Shown here piece by piece: positions 25,522-61,419 of a stretch of 64,000 bases of DNA; within the stretch, counting starts at the first letter, position 1; the number at the start of each line of letters is the position of its first letter. Position numbers and translations under genes: made by a program. This stretch comes from Lactobacillus sp. ESL0700. Its GTDB lineage: Bacteria; Bacillota; Bacilli; Lactobacillales; Lactobacillaceae. Below the pieces are notes generated by a model, which saw only the letters and a program-made list of their open reading frames with translations, ran no database searches and was not told the DNA's origin. The stretch is from the NCBI RefSeq assembly GCF_029392095.1, contig NZ_CP113930.1:930001-994000 (forward strand). The letters are read 5' to 3'.

Positions 25522-26409
25522 ATGCTAGGCACGATTGAAACAGGTAAAGTAATTGATCAAAATGAAGACGCATATTATGTGCAAATTGATGGCATTACTT
25601 ATGAATTAAAGCGTAAGGAAATTACTCAAGAAGAAAAGCCCCAAATTGGTGATGAAGTTCGTGGGTTTTTGTATGATGATAAGCAGCACAATCGTGAAAT
25701 GACGCAGTTTTTACCATTTGCCCAACAAGATCAGTATGGCTGGGGGAAAGTTACCGAAGTTAAGTATAACTTGGGTGTTTTTATTGATATTGGCTTGCCT
25801 GATAAAGATGTAGTGTTATCAGTTGACGACTTACCATTTGATAAAGATCGCTGGCCACGTAAAGATGATCAGTTGTTAGTCCACTTGATAACTGATGAAA
25901 AAGATCGTATTTGGGCAAAGTTAGCTGATGAAAATATTTTCGAGCAATTGTCAGCTCATTTTCCTAATGATATGGAAAACAAAAATATTTTTGGCACGGT
26001 TTATGCCAGTCGCGACTTGGGCGCCTTTGTAATTACTAAGGAATATTACTTGGGCTTTGTTCACTCCTCACAGATGGCACGGCCATTGCGTTTAGGTGAA
26101 CAATTTAAGGGACGCGTTGTTGGCATTAGTCAGTATGGCCGGCTTAATTTGAGCAGTTTACCGCGGGCTTTTGAAGAAATTGACGATGATGCGCAGATGG
26201 TATTAATGAGTTTACGCAGAATGAATACAAAAACCCTGCCATTTTACGACAAGTCCGATGCTCAAGAAATCAAGAATTACTTTGGGATCTCTAAGTCTGC
26301 CTTTAAACGTGCATTGGGCCACTTATTAAAGGGTCATTACATCACTGAAGATAAGGTTAGCGGCACAATTAGCCTAGTTAACGATCCAAACGATGACCAA
26401 AATGAGTAA
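25522..26409 (+). CDS. cvfB: CvfB-family S1 RNA-binding protein
   Basis: The 295-residue protein has tandem S1-type OB domains (e.g. GWGKVTEVKYNLGVFIDIGL near 75 and GTVYASRDLGAFVITKEYYL near 155) and a C-terminal winged-helix part (YFGISKSAFKRALGHLLKGH). This is the CvfB/YitL family, which binds RNA and affects virulence-gene expression in staphylococci. The ATG at 25522 is preferred to a GTG two codons upstream because AGGAG lies eight bases before it. It overlaps the xerD start, opening a six-gene run. Confidence 0.88.
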   Translation: MLGTIETGKVIDQNEDAYYVQIDGITYELKRKEITQEEKPQIGDEVRGFLYDDKQHNREMTQFLPFAQQDQYGWGKVTEVKYNLGVFIDIGLPDKDVVLSVDDLPFDKDRWPRKDDQLLVHLITDEKDRIWAKLADENIFEQLSAHFPNDMENKNIFGTVYASRDLGAFVITKEYYLGFVHSSQMARPLRLGEQFKGRVVGISQYGRLNLSSLPRAFEEIDDDAQMVLMSLRRMNTKTLPFYDKSDAQEIKNYFGISKSAFKRALGHLLKGHYITEDKVSGTISLVNDPNDDQNE

Positions 26410-27301
26410 ACTGCAGGAACAAGTTGAGGATTATTTGCGGTACAGTCAGGTTGAACGTGGGTTAAGTGCGAACACAATTACAGCTTACCGCCAAGATTTA
26501 ACCGAGTTTCTCGCATTTTTAACTAACGAAAATCTAACGGCGTGGCCAACTAAGGCCTTAGACATCGACGCCTTTTTAGCTCAGCAGCGTGATTTGAATA
26601 AGGCTACCAGTTCGATTAGCCGGATGATTTCAAGTTTGCGAAAATTTTACCAGTGGCTAGCTAGGCAAAACATTCAAAAGTTAAATCCAATGCTTGAGAT
26701 TGACCCACCTAAAAAGGAGCAGCGGCTGCCGGTTGCTCTGACGGTTGACGAGGTTGAGCGTTTGCTAGCTCAACCTGATGTTCATCAAAAGTTAGGCTTG
26801 CGCGACCGTGCACTACTTGAAACGCTATACGCTACTGGGATTCGAGTTAGCGAATTGATTAATCTAAAATTCGATGATTTGCATGAAGAATTAAAATTGC
26901 TGAAAGTCTTTGGTAAAGGCTCTAAGGAACGACTGATTCCGATTAGTCCAGTGGCCATTTCGTGGATTGAAAGTTATCAGACGAAGGTGCGCGAGCCACT
27001 ACTATTAAAGGTCGGTAAAGCTAGCGATTATATTTTTCTTAATAATCGCGGTGGCTCATTAACCAGGCAAGCAGTTTGGCAGATTATTAAGCGCTATTGT
27101 CGAATGGCCCAGATAACCAAAGATGTGACACCACATACTTTGCGCCACACTTTTGCGACCCACTTATTAGAAAATGGGGCCGATTTGCGTGTTGTGCAGG
27201 AAATCCTGGGTCACTCTGATATTAGCACCACCCAGATTTATACCAATTTATCGCAAAAGCATATTCTTCAGGTTTATGCTAAAGCGCATCCGCGAGCTTA
27301 G
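26402..27301 (+). CDS. xerD: Tyrosine recombinase XerD
   Basis: The roughly 300-residue recombinase acts with XerC at dif to resolve chromosome dimers. It has an N-terminal SAM-like core-binding domain and the catalytic set R (TGIRVSELINL), K (GKGSKER), HTLRH, LGH and Tyr in TTQIYTNL. Start could be the ATG at 26393 or 26402; neither has a clear ribosome binding site, and overlap with the cvfB stop suggests coupling. The partner XerC (45849) and a dif-like site (57972) are in the same window. Confidence 0.95.
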   Translation: MSKLQEQVEDYLRYSQVERGLSANTITAYRQDLTEFLAFLTNENLTAWPTKALDIDAFLAQQRDLNKATSSISRMISSLRKFYQWLARQNIQKLNPMLEIDPPKKEQRLPVALTVDEVERLLAQPDVHQKLGLRDRALLETLYATGIRVSELINLKFDDLHEELKLLKVFGKGSKERLIPISPVAISWIESYQTKVREPLLLKVGKASDYIFLNNRGGSLTRQAVWQIIKRYCRMAQITKDVTPHTLRHTFATHLLENGADLRVVQEILGHSDISTTQIYTNLSQKHILQVYAKAHPRA

Positions 27302-45848: not shown

Positions 45849-46772
45849 ATGACAACGCAAGATCAAGAGTTGCAAAGCTTTATTTCTTATTTGCAAAATG
45901 AGCGGCATTATAGTTCAAAGACGATCCAGTCTTACCAAACTGATTTGCTTGAGGCAAAGGCATTTTGGCAGGTTAATGGCGGGTTTGTGTCTTGGCAAAA
46001 AATTACTGAACGCGATGTTGAGATTTTTTTACAAAATCTTGCAGAGCGGAAATTAGCTAGAACAACGCAAGCTCGTAAGATGTCCAGTTTACGGTCATTT
46101 TATCGCTTTTTAACTCGGCGCAAGGTAGTTAAGACTAACCCAACGCAAACAATTGTGCTCCGCAAAAAGACGCGCAAATTGCCCCAATTTTTCTATGCAC
46201 CGGAAATGAAGCAGGTCTTTGCGACATTGACGGCTAGTGATCCACTAACGGTGCGTAACCTCGCGATGTTTGAGTTGTTTTATACAACTGGGATGCGGGT
46301 CAGTGAAGTTAGTGGGTTAAAATTGCCGCAGCTGGACTTAGATTTAAAAGTAATTTTAGTTCACGGTAAAGGCAATAAGGATCGTTATGTCGCTTTTGAT
46401 GAGCAAACTGAAAAAGCATTAAAGCAGTATTTAACCGACTCCCGGCCGCAACTTCTTGGTCAGCAAACTGATCCGCAAACAGTCTTTTTAAATAATCAAG
46501 GTAAGCCAATTACATCACGCGGAATTGAATATGTGATGCAAAAAGTATTTAATAAGGCTGGGGTCAGCGGCAAGGTGCATCCCCATGAACTGCGCCACTC
46601 CTTTGCGACGGCAATGCTTAACAACGGTGCCGATCTACGCAGTGTGCAGGAATTACTGGGACATGCGAACTTGTCAACAACGCAAATTTATACCCACGTT
46701 ACAATGAGCCACTTACAGGCTAATTACGAGCAATTTTTCACTCGTAATAATCAGAAAGATGAGGCAAAATAA
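45849..46772 (+). CDS. xerC: Tyrosine recombinase XerC
   Basis: The 307-residue partner of XerD acts at dif. Catalytic set: R in TGMRVSEVSGL, K in GKGNKDR, HELRH, LGH and Tyr in TTQIYTHV, all intact. It directly follows trmFO and shares one base with hslV (TAATG). The xerC-hslV-hslU (codV-clpQ-clpY) order is classical for Firmicutes. Confidence 0.95.
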   Translation: MTTQDQELQSFISYLQNERHYSSKTIQSYQTDLLEAKAFWQVNGGFVSWQKITERDVEIFLQNLAERKLARTTQARKMSSLRSFYRFLTRRKVVKTNPTQTIVLRKKTRKLPQFFYAPEMKQVFATLTASDPLTVRNLAMFELFYTTGMRVSEVSGLKLPQLDLDLKVILVHGKGNKDRYVAFDEQTEKALKQYLTDSRPQLLGQQTDPQTVFLNNQGKPITSRGIEYVMQKVFNKAGVSGKVHPHELRHSFATAMLNNGADLRSVQELLGHANLSTTQIYTHVTMSHLQANYEQFFTRNNQKDEAK

Positions 46773-49667: not shown

Positions 49668-49696
49668 TTGCGAACAATTGTTCGAATAGATATAAT
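49668..49696 (+). promoter_or_regulatory. Promoter with LexA box, no gene downstream
   Basis: -35 TTGCGA (49668-49673), exactly 17 bp, -10 TATAAT (49691-49696). The perfect palindrome CGAACAATTGTTCG (49671-49684) overlaps the -35 and fits the Gram-positive LexA box core GAAC-N4-GTTC. The predicted start runs straight into the plsY terminator hairpin, and no plus-strand gene follows before parE. Confidence 0.75.
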
Positions 49697-57040: not shown

Positions 57041-57400
57041 TTAATCTTTGTTAATTTCTTTGGCTAAGATAATGAAAGACTTGCATACGCGTTCAGCCTT
57101 TTCAGGAGCCATTTTTCTTAATTCGTTAAGAACCTTCTTAATGAAAACTGGAGTATTATCTTGATGATTTTCTACCTTAACTTCTTTGAAGCGGTAAGCG
57201 TTCATGATAATATCTGGTGTTGTTGTATTTAAAGCTCTGGCGATTGAATCAAGCTTTTGAATACTAATGTTTTGGTTCTTAGTACGTTCAAGACGTGAGA
57301 TAAAGTTAACTGACAAATCACTTAATTCAGCGAGATCCTCCTGTGTCAGTTTTTGTTCACGTCGTCGACGGCATATTTCTTTTCCTAAATTTATACTCAT
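57041..57400 (-). CDS. XRE-family transcriptional regulator
   Basis: The 119-residue protein starts with a Cro/CI-type HTH (residues 5-60: ICRRRREQKLTQEDLAELSD, LSVNFISRLERTKNQ, LDSIARALN) and ends in a helical, charged C-terminal part of unknown role. The ATG at 57400 follows AAAGGG; an upstream TTG seven codons earlier overlaps that site. It is next to the gene-free terminus stretch and faces away from dif. A phage-like regulator origin is possible but no other phage gene is near. Confidence 0.88.
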   Translation of the reverse strand: MSINLGKEICRRRREQKLTQEDLAELSDLSVNFISRLERTKNQNISIQKLDSIARALNTTTPDIIMNAYRFKEVKVENHQDNTPVFIKKVLNELRKMAPEKAERVCKSFIILAKEINKD

Positions 57401-57478
57401 GGAATAAATCAACCCTTTCAAAAAAATAATCTCTATTCAAGATTATAAAATAAAATGTTAAGAATAATAAGTATAATC

Positions 57479-57509
57479 TTTAATTTCAAGTAACCGAATT
57501 GAAATTAAA
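57479..57509. repeat. 31-bp perfect dyad upstream of the XRE gene
   Basis: TTTAATTTCAA (57479-57489) and TTGAAATTAAA (57499-57509) are exact inverted copies around GTAACCGAA. It lies about 80 bp before the XRE start, so an autoregulatory operator is the simplest reading. A recombinase or nucleoid-protein site is an alternative. Confidence 0.7.
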
Positions 57510-57971
57510 AATTATTTTTAAAAACCCCAGATAGTATTGTAGGACATTTTGCTAAAAATTTAAATAAAAATGCACCTAGAAAAATTCAACTTAAAATAAA
57601 AAAGGGAAAAAGTGGCAAATATTATCTTAAATGGCGTAATTGCTTGTCACATGGGAAAGGTAAACAAAAAGATTAAAGTATAGTTAATTATTAAATGCAA
57701 TGTATTTAATTTTTGCCTAGTAATCGCTTAAATTTTATAATTTTTAAAATATAGGATCCTTAAATGACTTTCAAATTAAATATTTACTTGGTTTAAGTAA
57801 GTAATTATTAATTTTAATCTGGTGAGTTTAGCGTGTCAGCAACTTGTTTTGGCAAATTTATCCAGTTATATCAACGATTAAGTAGCTATTATCTTTGCAA
57901 GAAAAAATTACGGGGTAGCAAGTTAAGAAGAGGAATATAAAAGAGTAAATGCTAAAATTATTCTTGATGTT

Positions 57972-57999
57972 ACTTCGTATAATATATATTATGTAAAGT
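57972..57999 (+). other. dif: Chromosome dimer resolution site dif (XerCD)
   Basis: The 28-bp site has XerC arm ACTTCGTATAA, centre TATATA, and XerD arm TTATGTAAAGT. Compared from memory with the Bacillus subtilis dif site it differs at only three positions, with the centre identical and the XerD arm 10 of 11. Location in a gene-free stretch, presence of xerC and xerD nearby, and the change of gene orientation here all support a real dif. Confidence 0.88.
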
Positions 58000-58359
58000 T
58001 ATTTAGAAAAATAATTATTATTCAGAAGAGTCATCACTGACTGACTTTAAATTATGGTTTATTGTAAATAATCAGATCATGCAACGGTATTTGAATAAAA
58101 AAACTCAATTTGAGTTCATACAGAATTTATTTAACTGCTGAGATTGCAATTCTACGGCCAAATAAAATTATTTTGGCTGATAACTGATAACCTGTTAATC
58201 CAGTTAGTTTGAATTTGCTAGTTGTTAGTAATAATTAAAGTGTAAAGTAGTAATGACTGAATTTTTTAATGCAAGGATTTTATTTTGTATTATATATAGA
58301 AGAAATGAGTCATTAGTTTTATTGCGGACGTGGCCGTTATTATAAGTATTTTTTGGCTG

Positions 58360-58389
58360 CTATCATTAAAACTATAATTTTAATGATAG
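58360..58389. repeat. 30-bp perfect palindrome upstream of the XerS-like gene
   Basis: CTATCATTAAAA (58360-58371) and TTTTAATGATAG (58378-58389) are exact inverted copies around CTATAA. Arm length and 6-bp centre are those of a Xer recombination site, and the core AAAACTATAATTTT resembles, from memory, the dif-SL site used by XerS in lactococci and streptococci. It could also form an RNA hairpin. Confidence 0.75.
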
Positions 58390-58660
58390 GTATAAAGAGC
58401 TGTCTTACAAGGTTTTAGCTAAATTAATTTAACTGACAATCAATAATTAATAATTTTTTAGCCAATTAAAAAATCAATCAGTATTTAAATTTTAAAACTT
58501 GGGAGCAAACACAAATGCTGAAAAAATAATTTTGTCTCAAAAGATGAAATTGCATGCCAGGAAATAATTTGTCGACTTAATAACTTAATAACGGCAATAC
58601 CACGAATCCTACTTTTCTCCCTCCTCTTCTCTTTTATATCATTTTTCATAGTCAAAAATT

Positions 58661-58690
58661 CGAACATACATTCTACTTTTGCTTTATAAT
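58661..58690 (+). promoter_or_regulatory. Promoter region of the XerS-like gene with LexA-like element
   Basis: -10 TATAAT at 58685-58690, 36 bp before the GTG. CGAACATACATTCT (58661-58674), where a -35 would be, matches the LexA box except for GTTC reading ATTC and the last base. No good -35 is seen. Confidence 0.4.
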
Positions 58691-58726
58691 TATTAATGAC
58701 AATAAACTATCAAGGAGAACATATTT

Positions 58727-59797
58727 GTGGAAACCAAAAAGTATTTAGACTTAATTGAAGCTGAGCTTACAGGCATGCCGGATTTTGTTAAGGAATATAA
58801 TTTCGGCACCAACCATTCATTAACAACCACTTACCAATATTTAACAGAAATACGACGCTTTTTTGATTGGCTGCGCCAAGAAGGAATTTCCTCTGCAGCG
58901 GATAATCGGGATATTGACATTACTACACTAGCAAATTTGCGACGCAATGACATTATGTTGTACATTAATTATTTAGGCCACGTTAAAAATCAGCAAGGAC
59001 ATTTAAATTCACCGACAACGATTAATCGCTCAATTAATGCCTTACGTTCCCTATTTAAATTTTTAACGATTACTGCTGACAATAATGATGGTCAGCCTTA
59101 TTTTGAGCGTAACGTGATGCTCAAAATCGACTCACTTAACAACACAAAGACGTTAAACTATCGAGCACATATCCTTGAGTCGCATATGTACATTGGAAAG
59201 TTAAAGTATCAGTTTCTTGATTTTATTGAAAATGAATATGAACAACATTGCAATAAGCAGGCCTTGCCGAGTTTTAAAATAAATAAAGAACGCGATATGG
59301 CAATTATTGCTTTAATTTTGGGAACTGGAATTCGAGTTTCTGAATGTGCCGGCGTTAACTTGTCAGATTTAAATTTGAAAAAGGCTACGCTCGATGTTAC
59401 GCGTAAAGGTGGCCAGCGCGACAGTGTGCCGATTGCTGAATGGACTTTGGATTATATTACTGAATATCAGAAAGTTAGACGTGAGCGCTATTTAGCCACT
59501 AAAAAGGAAACTGCGTTTTTCTTAACTCGGTGGCATCAAAAGACAAAAAGAATGACAACTAATGCAATTGAAAAAATGGTTAACAAGTATTCCGCTAGCT
59601 TTGGTCACCCACTGACACCACATAAGTTGCGCCATACCCTTGCTTCTGAGCTCTATGGCGTGACTAAGGACCAGGTGCTTGTAGCACAGCAGCTTGGACA
59701 AAAAGGCACCTCAGCCACGGATTTATACACTCACGTCGATCAGAAAAAACAGCGTGATGCCTTAAATGAAATTTCTGAAACGGAAAATAAAGATTAA
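58727..59797 (+). CDS. xerS: XerS-like tyrosine recombinase
   Basis: The 356-residue protein matches XerS of streptococci and lactococci in length and in stretches such as SPTTINRSINALRSLFKFL, GQPYFERNV and INKERDMAIIALILGTGIRV. Catalytic positions: R203, K227 (TRKGGQRDSV), H299 and R302 (PHKLRH), Y334 (TDLYTHV). The position normally His in LGH is Q325 (QQLGQKG). GTG start is set by AAGGAG nine bases upstream. It is a third Xer-type enzyme in addition to intact XerC and XerD and sits 730 bp from dif. Confidence 0.85.
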   Translation: METKKYLDLIEAELTGMPDFVKEYNFGTNHSLTTTYQYLTEIRRFFDWLRQEGISSAADNRDIDITTLANLRRNDIMLYINYLGHVKNQQGHLNSPTTINRSINALRSLFKFLTITADNNDGQPYFERNVMLKIDSLNNTKTLNYRAHILESHMYIGKLKYQFLDFIENEYEQHCNKQALPSFKINKERDMAIIALILGTGIRVSECAGVNLSDLNLKKATLDVTRKGGQRDSVPIAEWTLDYITEYQKVRRERYLATKKETAFFLTRWHQKTKRMTTNAIEKMVNKYSASFGHPLTPHKLRHTLASELYGVTKDQVLVAQQLGQKGTSATDLYTHVDQKKQRDALNEISETENKD

Positions 59798-59853
59798 ATA
59801 AAAAGTACCAATAACTGCTAATTTGCTGCGTAACAGTTATTGGTACTTTTTTA
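59798..59853. terminator. Bidirectional terminator between xerS-like and nudix genes
   Basis: Perfect 17-bp stem with arms at 59801-59817 and 59834-59850 (core GTACCAATAACTG), T run on both strands. Confidence 0.93.
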
Positions 59854-59867
59854 TAGTTACATGAATT

Positions 59868-60491
59868 TTATTCAAAAGTCGTTTGCCAGTTCGGATCATG
59901 ATATGCATCAAAGCAAGCTTTAATTTCTGCTTTACTGTTGCGCTCAGCTGATAACTCAGGTAGATCTTCAAGACTGAAATAGCGACAGTCAGTTGTTTCC
60001 GTGTTTTTGACAAACTCGCCGCCAACTTCACGACATAGGAAGAAAACATCAATGACATTAATTGCTCGCTCGCCGCGAATCGTATGTATGTGGTTGCGAA
60101 TTGTAATTACTCGTTCGGCAACAACGTCACGACCTGACTCCTCTTTGGCTTCTTTAATGCAATTCTCTTTAACGGATACATTAGGCTCGCACCAGCCACC
60201 AGGCATTGACCAAGCACCATCTGTGGTTTCTCGCACTAGCAAAATTTGATCATCTTTAAAAATCGCTGCACGAGTGCCCAGTTTAGGCGTCTGGTAACCG
60301 TCATCACTGCTGAATAATGACTTAACCTGCTTGAGTGGCAAACCAGTTTTAGCGGCCATCATTTCTGTAGCAATAGCTCTAATTCGTTCGTAGCGCTCTA
60401 AGTCAAATTTGTCGTGACCATACTCCAAGCCATCTTGAGCTAAGCTTTGTAATTCAATTGCCCAATCAGTAAACTGATCTTTTTTATCCAT
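59868..60491 (-). CDS. NUDIX hydrolase with N-terminal extension
   Basis: The 207-residue protein has a helical N-terminal domain (about residues 1-65) as in the YjhB-like NUDIX group, then the hydrolase fold (TRAAIFKDDQILLVRETTDG). The Nudix box is altered: GGWCEPNVSVKENCIKEAKE continues ESG, so the first Glu of the pattern is Val and Arg is Lys, though the EAKEE metal-binding Glu residues remain. Substrate is unknown, an ADP-sugar or dinucleotide being possible. Last gene of a minus-strand unit behind degV. Confidence 0.88.
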   Translation of the reverse strand: MDKKDQFTDWAIELQSLAQDGLEYGHDKFDLERYERIRAIATEMMAAKTGLPLKQVKSLFSSDDGYQTPKLGTRAAIFKDDQILLVRETTDGAWSMPGGWCEPNVSVKENCIKEAKEESGRDVVAERVITIRNHIHTIRGERAINVIDVFFLCREVGGEFVKNTETTDCRYFSLEDLPELSAERNSKAEIKACFDAYHDPNWQTTFE

Positions 60492-60540
60492 GTTTTCTCC
60501 TTTAAATATTACAGAAAAAAGCAGCTATAAAAGCTGCTAA

Positions 60541-61419
60541 TTATTTTGTTAAATCAATTTTGTCAATGTCGATCATCCAGCCAATGGCAAGTGATTTTTC
60601 ACCTAAGTGAGTCGCAATGCCGGGGCTAAATCTGGTGATTGAAATTGTCTTATCTGGGAATTCTTTTAATAAAAATTCGTTTGCTTCCTTAACCTGACTT
60701 TCATCATTTGAGTCAATAATGAATAACTTGATTTTATTCTTGTATGGCAATTGGTTGATTTTCTCAACTGTCAAACTCTCCATTTTGATGAAAGCTCGCT
60801 TCATTGAGCGGATTTTGTCAAAAGCAACAATTTCTCCGTCTTTAAAGGTTAATAACGGCTTAATATTAAGCATTGAACCAATAAAGGCACCAGCATTACT
60901 TAAACGGCCACCACGGCTGAGGTTTTTCAGGTCATTAACGACAAATACCTCATCAATTGTTGCTCTGATTTTTTCTAAGTGATCAAGAATAGTTGTTAAA
61001 TCTAAGCCATTTTTGATCATTTTTGCAGCAGCCAAGACCAAATTACCCTGCAAACGCACAGTCATCTTGGTATCAACTGGATGAAGATTGTATGCTGGGT
61101 GACTCTGGGCAATATTACATAAATTTTGATAGAAACTTGAAATGCCACTAGAAAGTGTAATCGCGATAATTGCTTCATATCCTTCTTCATGTAGCTTGTC
61201 AAAAAGGCTAGTCATACTACCCATACTTGGCTGTGAGGTTTTAGGAAAATCAGCACCCTCCCGCTGCAGCTCAAAAAGCTTGTCGGAAGTAATATTGACA
61301 CCTTCTAAATATTCTTCATTACCAATAATAATTGGAATTGGCACAACAATAATATTATTGTCTTCAGCTTCTTGTTTAGTTATAACGCTAGTACTATCGG
61401 TAACTAATGCAATTTTCAT
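60541..61419 (-). CDS. DegV family fatty-acid-binding protein
   Basis: The 292-residue DegV/FakB-type protein shows VTDSTSVI, KTSQPSMGS, SSGISSFYQ, SRGGRLSNAGAFIG, and HLGEKSLAIGW. It should carry an exogenous fatty acid for FakA-dependent phosphorylation. It is distinct from the paralogue at 38634. Neighbours are a MarR regulator upstream and a NUDIX gene downstream on the same strand, so the three probably form one unit. Confidence 0.92.
   Translation of the reverse strand: MKIALVTDSTSVITKQEAEDNNIIVVPIPIIIGNEEYLEGVNITSDKLFELQREGADFPKTSQPSMGSMTSLFDKLHEEGYEAIIAITLSSGISSFYQNLCNIAQSHPAYNLHPVDTKMTVRLQGNLVLAAAKMIKNGLDLTTILDHLEKIRATIDEVFVVNDLKNLSRGGRLSNAGAFIGSMLNIKPLLTFKDGEIVAFDKIRSMKRAFIKMESLTVEKINQLPYKNKIKLFIIDSNDESQVKEANEFLLKEFPDKTISITRFSPGIATHLGEKSLAIGWMIDIDKIDLTK

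Follow-up and report, generated by a model that had tools for sequence, protein, structure and literature searches.

Why would a chromosome that encodes intact XerC and XerD and carries their dif site also keep a XerS-type recombinase with a palindromic site of its own? The question is raised by a 64,000-nucleotide stretch (G000:C1:930001-994000, hereafter the window) of a 2.04 Mb Lactobacillus genome. In streptococci and lactococci, XerS is described as taking the place of XerCD, with a site that has unequal arms and an 11-bp central region, and the passages available from this source make no mention of lactobacilli (PMC5357621). According to the accessible passages of Kono 2011 (PMC3025954), L. 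helveticus DPC 4571 has the same gene set as the window, XerS beside XerC and XerD, which the authors considered a possible intermediate stage in evolution following gene transfer; in that one strain they found no dif and no site for XerS. The features of the window are as follows.

26393 to 27301, + strand: xerD, upstream of scpA/scpB, scoring over its family cut-off.
45849 to 46772, + strand: xerC, in the gene order trmFO-xerC-hslV-hslU, scoring over its family cut-off (neighbors named by eye from translations).
57972 to 57999, + strand: XerCD dif site, ACTTCGTATAATATATATTATGTAAAGT, recognized by its match to B. subtilis dif and its conservation.
58360 to 58389, no strand: candidate XerS recombination site, difSL-like, CTATCATTAAAA-CTATAA-TTTTAATGATAG, a 12-6-12 palindrome recognized by sequence, conservation and shared core.
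58661 to 58674, no strand: LexA-box-like element CGAACATACATTCT in the promoter region of xerS, with two mismatches to the consensus CGAACRNRYGTTYG and family-wide support.
58685 to 58690, + strand: candidate -10 hexamer of xerS, TATAAT, read by eye and not listed by the consensus promoter scan.
58727 to 59797, + strand: xerS, a single tyrosine recombinase of 356 aa with a GTG start, recognized by profile score and by R203, K227, H299, R302 and Y334.

The preliminary description of this DNA had proposed a recombinase of the XerS type and a palindromic site belonging to it, and both halves of the proposal hold. The protein scores 483 bits against the NCBIfam XerS model NF003462 (cut-off 267), which places it within the equivalog family, and falls far short of the cut-off in both the XerC and the XerD model. 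The catalytic R, K, H, R and Y of tyrosine recombinases are invariant in 123 of 123 aligned XerS proteins. By XerS, the records closest to the window are those of Lactobacillus sp. ESL0679 (97%) and ESL0701 (95%). The histidine of the LGH motif (residue 325, window 59699-59701) is Q in 110 of the 123 aligned proteins, including that of the window, and the same position is H in two XerS sequences inspected from family f4 (genus and family codes, g and f, follow the survey numbering). No sequence-matched PDB chain is named XerS; the Xer-named matches are XerC-like, XerD, XerA and XerH. Like XerH/difH of epsilonproteobacteria, as outlined in the passages at hand (PMC5357621, PMC2731167), XerS is a single, site-linked recombinase of similar size, but the sequence match to XerH is weak (PDB 5jjv, E 4e-9).

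The palindrome is likewise perfect as first reported: its arms pair at 12 of 12 positions around CTATAA. On the + strand the order is dif, palindrome, xerS, with 360 bp between dif and the palindrome and 337 bp between the palindrome and xerS, so that a dedicated site lies next to the gene. Matches to the 20-mer core with up to three mismatches are expected only 0.07 times by chance in the window. The exact match occurs at the palindrome alone (the same place also matches on the opposite strand with two mismatches), and a three-mismatch match is found at one other place. Many genomic copies had been named in advance as an argument against a dedicated site; the inner 14-mer AAAACTATAATTTT has a single copy in the 2.04 Mb genome, and its reversed control has none.

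Comparison with relatives reveals that the site is conserved. A contig scan gave 44 loci, three distant ones of which were set aside. The 30-mer is present at up to six mismatches in 35 of the remaining 41 Lactobacillaceae loci, with flanks of up to 5.5 kb from xerS, and dif at up to two mismatches in 25; at the six-mismatch threshold the site was not found in L026, L031, L036, L040, L041 and L044. Locus L023 carries a 30-mer identical to that of the window. When the window was aligned with 21 of the 41 relatives, picked for a dif within ~1.3 kb of xerS, identity to the window reached 0.92 for the palindrome and 0.97 for dif, against 0.39 for the other intergenic positions. The compensatory arm changes that were expected between relatives are seen across lineages, as the pairs CTATCATT/AATGATAG, CTTTCATT/AATGAAAG and TGTCATT/AATGACA. 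The right arms of g16 sites are asymmetric.

Two pairs of close relatives differ by an inverted 6-bp core between collinear flanks: L021 and L022, whose xerS are 99.3% identical, and L029 and L030 (98.7%), in which CAATAA becomes TTATTG with four differences. Such an inversion fits XerS exchange between wrongly aligned sites, but a perfect inverted repeat may also undergo template switching, and the inversion is no proof of activity. Three loci, L008 (5470), L011 (5136) and L016 (5121), possess a second, more difSL-like element around AAAACTATAATTTT on the opposite strand upstream of xerS, the L016 copy with one mismatch.

The likeness to dif-SL, which the preliminary description had put forward, is borne out by family f4, taken to be the streptococci because its site is difSL-like and lexA is absent from both f4 genomes tested. 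All 15 f4 xerS loci (order search) carry CTTTCYGAAAAA-CTRTAA-TTTTCTTGAAAM at -77 to -83. Their inner core is AAAA-CTATAA-TTTT in 13, identical to the window's, and AAAA-CTGTAA-TTTT in 2. As in the XerS/difSL system of streptococci and lactococci (PMC5357621, in the passages available), a XerS-family protein of ~356 aa is paired with a terminus site next to its gene, and the inner core is the same. The arms differ: those of the window are perfectly symmetric, whereas those of difSL are imperfect and unequal. Unlike the known system, moreover, XerC, XerD and dif coexist with XerS in the window instead of being replaced by it, xerS in the family often carries a LexA box, and the LGH motif mostly has Q in place of H.

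Outside these two groups, XerS over the cut-off was also observed in the Lactobacillales families f9, f3 and f2. Nine loci of genus g51 in f9 were read: six have another 12-6-12 palindrome, CTTTCTTGAAAG-N6-CTTTCAAGAAAG or near, at -130 to -152, eight have LexA boxes (≤2 mismatches) and six a dif-like site.

The claimed coexistence with XerC and XerD also stands: both genes are complete in the window and score above their family cut-offs, and dif has three mismatches to the B. subtilis dif sequence. As in B. subtilis-type XerCD/dif, the palindrome would be a dimer-resolution site at the terminus, and XerCD/dif itself is present close by; unlike XerS, that system relies on a pair of recombinases, and the two arms of its 28-bp site differ. 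A terminus location, as for difSL, is indicated by the neighboring dif and by the GC skew, which is ~+0.1 over most of the window, +0.015 at 58-60 kb, and -0.04 and -0.08 at 59-62 kb. Because the skew is weakly positive again at 61-64 kb, it is by itself a soft terminus marker, and a pattern positive on the left and negative on the right of the site holds at only 39 of 58 loci. The preliminary description had regarded two systems at one terminus as unusual. They are indeed both present here, but the situation is not peculiar to one genome: XerS scores over its cut-off in all 16 genomes sampled from the genus Lactobacillus and in 99 of 301 from the Lactobacillaceae. Within the genus sample, XerC, XerD and XerS matches are open and full-length in 16 of 16 genomes, and dif is found in 13.

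To place the site in the family, 98 xerS loci were fetched (the window's own excluded), of which 96 were readable after two with xerS cut by a contig end were dropped. A site was called when a palindrome with A4-N6-T4 inside paired at 9 or more of its 12 arm positions and lay no more than 7 kb upstream, or 3 kb downstream, of xerS. By this definition 72 of the 96 loci have one, or 71 without L130, whose palindrome is probably a terminator and was dropped from the count. Ten further sites, farther off or with one mismatch (six in g6, three in g20, one in g16), were sought where a pattern match or a known dif pointed to them and bring the total to 81 of 96; the other 15 XerS-positive loci gave no site, the search beyond 7 kb covering ten genomes only. 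A dif (≤3 mismatches) occurs in the fetched stretch of 61 loci, together with the palindrome in 56. Over about equal lengths, A4-N6-T4 palindromes number 75 upstream of xerS and 4 downstream, a rate at which ~4 of the 71 sites within 7 kb would be due to chance. The free-core pattern CATTAAAAN6TTTTAATG is likewise linked to the gene, being present in 30 of 99 XerS-positive and 2 of 202 XerS-negative genomes (reversed control, 2 of 301), although four of the genomes that have it contain a second, unlinked match.

In most loci outside g6, which is taken to be Limosilactobacillus, the palindrome lies 77-651 bp upstream of xerS. Such a position would suit an operator or another regulatory element of xerS with no role in recombination, but this reading is highly improbable. 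The g6 site lies 1.5 to 17.7 kb from xerS. In three g20 genomes and one g16 genome, xerS is ~7, 8, 15 and 16 kb away, yet the palindrome remains 0.5-1 kb from dif; that the sites of these four genomes keep to dif, away from xerS, disfavors an operator. The core of the palindrome also matches the streptococcal site, and cores vary among lineages while the inner arms read TAAAA/TTTTA in every one of 49 distinct sites (the search itself required A4 and T4). The forecast that the palindrome would stay with xerS is borne out at most loci outside g6; in these four genomes it is dif and the terminus that the site stays with. The possibility of a terminator was set aside, there being no terminator-like site in 57900-58740. 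A promoter scan of that interval listed 7 promoter-like sites against 5.2 expected, none of them at the -10 of xerS read by eye, and 57400-60600 contains no Rfam match (RNA element).

The fate of XerCD in the family bears on the role of XerS. Eighty genomes were searched for XerC, XerD and dif: 74 of the 99 XerS-positive genomes and six XerS-negative ones. The dual state, defined as two or more Xer proteins with the better one above the XerD cut-off, was found in 54 of the 74, and all six XerS-negative genomes likewise have two or more Xer proteins, the better one above that cut-off. The remaining 20 of the 74 are deficient, with XerC or both XerC and XerD gone, and 13 of these belong to g6. 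All 13 g6 genomes encode one diverged Xer of 219-309 bits against the XerD model, under its cut-off; it is identified as XerD because it lies between cvfB and scpA in three genomes inspected. Neither XerC nor XerD is present in four g22 genomes, G075, G030 and G082, the exception being a 148-bit XerC-model match in G111. Altogether, XerC or both proteins, along with dif, are gone in XerS-positive members of five genera (g6, g22, g9, g31 and g18), and dif (≤1 mismatch) is found in 48 of 54 dual versus 1 of 20 deficient genomes. The XerS-negative members tested of g6 (G238, G291) and g22 (G057, G086, G135, G158) retain XerC, XerD and dif, the last in G086 as one-mismatch matches only.

For comparison, the XerD model was run on 80 of the 202 XerS-negative genomes, a sample that deliberately included four with weak or no Xer matches. 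At least two matches were obtained in 76, and none in G033, G126, G150 and G170. XerC/XerD loss thus affects 20 of 74 XerS-positive and 4 of 80 XerS-negative genomes tested, counts that ignore shared ancestry and uneven sampling. XerC/XerD deficiency associates with XerS, with exceptions; since these four XerS-negative genomes are also without XerC and XerD, no known Xer is indispensable in Lactobacillaceae. The four are at least 94% complete and have neither a XerD-model match nor a XerS over the cut-off. In genus g9, dual, XerS-only and Xer-less members occur together. Several lineages look like completed replacements of XerCD by XerS.

The loss of XerCD in XerS-positive members of several genera might also mean that the dual state is transient, as published for L. 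helveticus: XerS would have been gained horizontally and either it or XerCD would no longer function. Such a reading is compatible with the XerS module itself. Drift of both sites in G201 (L024) and G275 (L289) would agree with it: there the left arm of the XerS site is degraded and the dif center altered, the two sites still lying within ~0.8 kb of each other. This reading is nevertheless unlikely. The palindrome and dif are both conserved islands across the 22 aligned loci and all three genes are intact in 16 of 16 members of the genus, so that both systems look to be under selection. The changes in G201 and G275, which belong to the same genus, may explain why the site search in L. helveticus failed; in G300 the XerS site was not found.

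The promoter of xerS suggests a link with the SOS response in part of the family. Scoring used the LexA-box consensus CGAACRNRYGTTYG. A box with up to two mismatches lies within 120 bp of xerS at 46 of 96 loci, whereas the 1071 starts of other ORFs at these loci have 11; at one mismatch or fewer the numbers are 32 of 96 and 2 of 1071. In the promoters inspected by eye, boxes either follow the -10 directly or abut the ribosome-binding site. The regulator itself is widespread: of 80 genomes searched, 78 have lexA and two, both f4, do not, and all 20 lexA promoters fetched contain a box at up to two mismatches. By genus, the two-mismatch box of xerS is found in g16 (15/15), g12 (4/4), g4 (4/4), g1 (13/15) and g20 (8/12), and the one-mismatch box in g16, g4, g12 and part of g1. 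The two-mismatch box is rare in g14 (1/13) and in g22 (1/5, the one that retains XerCD), and it was not found in g6 (0/13), g25 (0/6), g9 (0/3), g3 (0/3) or g24, g31 and g18 (0/1 each). The box thus occurs in 35 of 54 dual genomes, the window included, versus 0 of 20 deficient ones, although several genera with the dual state have few boxes (g14) or none (g25 and g3). Judged from these promoter sequences, xerS is probably SOS-inducible in several lineages.

As regards the window, the SOS reading is no more than suggestive. Its element CGAACATACATTCT lies upstream of the -10 and has two mismatches, a level that ~2% of random windows reach; of the 22 aligned loci, 15 keep AAACATACATTC and another two have it with one change each. 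LexA consensus matches in the window are no commoner than chance (11 against 13.25 expected), and CGAACNNNNGTTYG is rarer genome-wide than its reversed control (3 and 4 versus 13 and 14), so the case for LexA rests on the family comparison. A second candidate, CGAACAATTGTTCG at window 49671-49684, was rejected as the lexA operator: lexA lies at G000:C1:1198248, and this site is between convergent genes.

As to the origin of the gene, in a FastTree tree of 123 XerS proteins, the family's XerS is split over several separate clades, and a clade of g3, most of g22, g6 and g1 falls inside plasmid XerS lineages, with node support of 0.995 together with the nearer plasmid group and 0.475 with the farther one. 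The idea of a domesticated recombinase is plausible, if tentative, on this nesting of a chromosomal clade among plasmid XerS, a topology that leaves the direction of transfer unfixed. Tyrosine recombinases like the window XerS are found in 1129 plasmid records at E ≤1e-5; most of these need not be XerS, since 1125 of them are below 60% identity. XerS homologues are annotated on large lactobacillus plasmids. Eight of 15 plasmid loci, all annotated xerS, were inspected, and an A4-N6-T4 palindrome is present in two of the eight, around the core CGGTAA in one and TTTTTG in the other. The differing cores should prevent recombination between plasmid and chromosome. The 252 kb 'plasmid' of L. fermentum DR9 (L050) encodes a XerS at near-zero distance from that of g6 genome G149; this record may be a piece of chromosome. 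A phage origin of XerS was rejected, the best phage match being only 40% identical, in a Listeria phage record.

Plasmid homologues with palindromes of their own and a chromosomal clade nested among them would also suit a different task, such as multimer resolution or capture of plasmids or mobile elements, or decatenation, for which XerS and its site would be functional while XerCD handles chromosome dimers. XerC and XerD are, after all, retained throughout the genus, and dif in most members. Such a task is improbable, given that the site is a single chromosomal copy adjoining dif and that XerS-positive members of the five genera named above have dispensed with XerC or both proteins and with dif. 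Use of the site by mobile elements likewise found no candidate: among viral contigs, CATTAAAACWATAATTTTAATG matches a single one, which by eye is a bacterial terminus with the start of xerS and a dif-like sequence, and CTTTCATTAAAA-N6-TTTTAATGAAAG has no match in those scanned.

Taken together, xerS and the palindrome likely constitute a complete single-recombinase dimer-resolution module beside XerCD/dif, one that is probably raised by the SOS response in many dual lineages and is apparently the sole system after XerCD/dif loss. We infer its function from conservation and the loss pattern. The proposed course of events, from binding and cutting to the resolution of dimers, with a dependence on FtsK and induction by SOS, is as follows. 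XerS monomers would bind the two identical arms of the palindrome, and the two copies of the site in a dimeric chromosome, one on each sister half, would meet at the closing septum, presumably through FtsK, by analogy with streptococci. XerS would then cut on either side of the 6-bp core and swap strands, giving monomers. In dual lineages with a LexA operator at xerS, this second system would be raised under SOS conditions, in which repair by RecA increases the number of dimers; it is the operator that makes SOS control probable in many of them. In lineages without XerC/XerD and dif, where the LexA box was not found, XerS would be the sole system. A fuller scenario may apply but is advanced tentatively: XerCD/dif would do the housekeeping, a LexA-controlled, plasmid-derived XerS/palindrome pair would be kept for DNA damage, and repeated loss of XerCD/dif along with the absence of the box would mark promotion of XerS to the housekeeping role.

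In pneumococcus, XerS is needed for dimers arising in transformation, according to the portion of the report available (PMC5696345). The LexA-controlled integron integrases, in the sections accessible (PMC3108266), are tyrosine recombinases under SOS control, as proposed here for XerS; they act on gene cassettes, unlike XerS, for which a single terminus site is proposed. No earlier report of the palindromic site or of SOS control of xerS was found in the literature searched, which in full text comprised open-licence articles only. The second Xer module beside dif is real and conserved. Its type, XerS/difSL, is known, and what is new is the setting: coexistence with XerCD/dif, symmetric arms, a LexA box in several lineages and an apparent ability to replace XerCD.

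A third of the Lactobacillaceae sampled have XerS (99/301), and most of those tested keep both systems (54/74). Because dual and apparently replaced lineages coexist in the family, the swap of one segregation system for another becomes directly testable, and this in harmless organisms. If the reading is true, a LexA-controlled dimer-resolution recombinase would tie SOS repair to chromosome segregation, and the family would show how a state with XerS alone, as in streptococci, can arise naturally.
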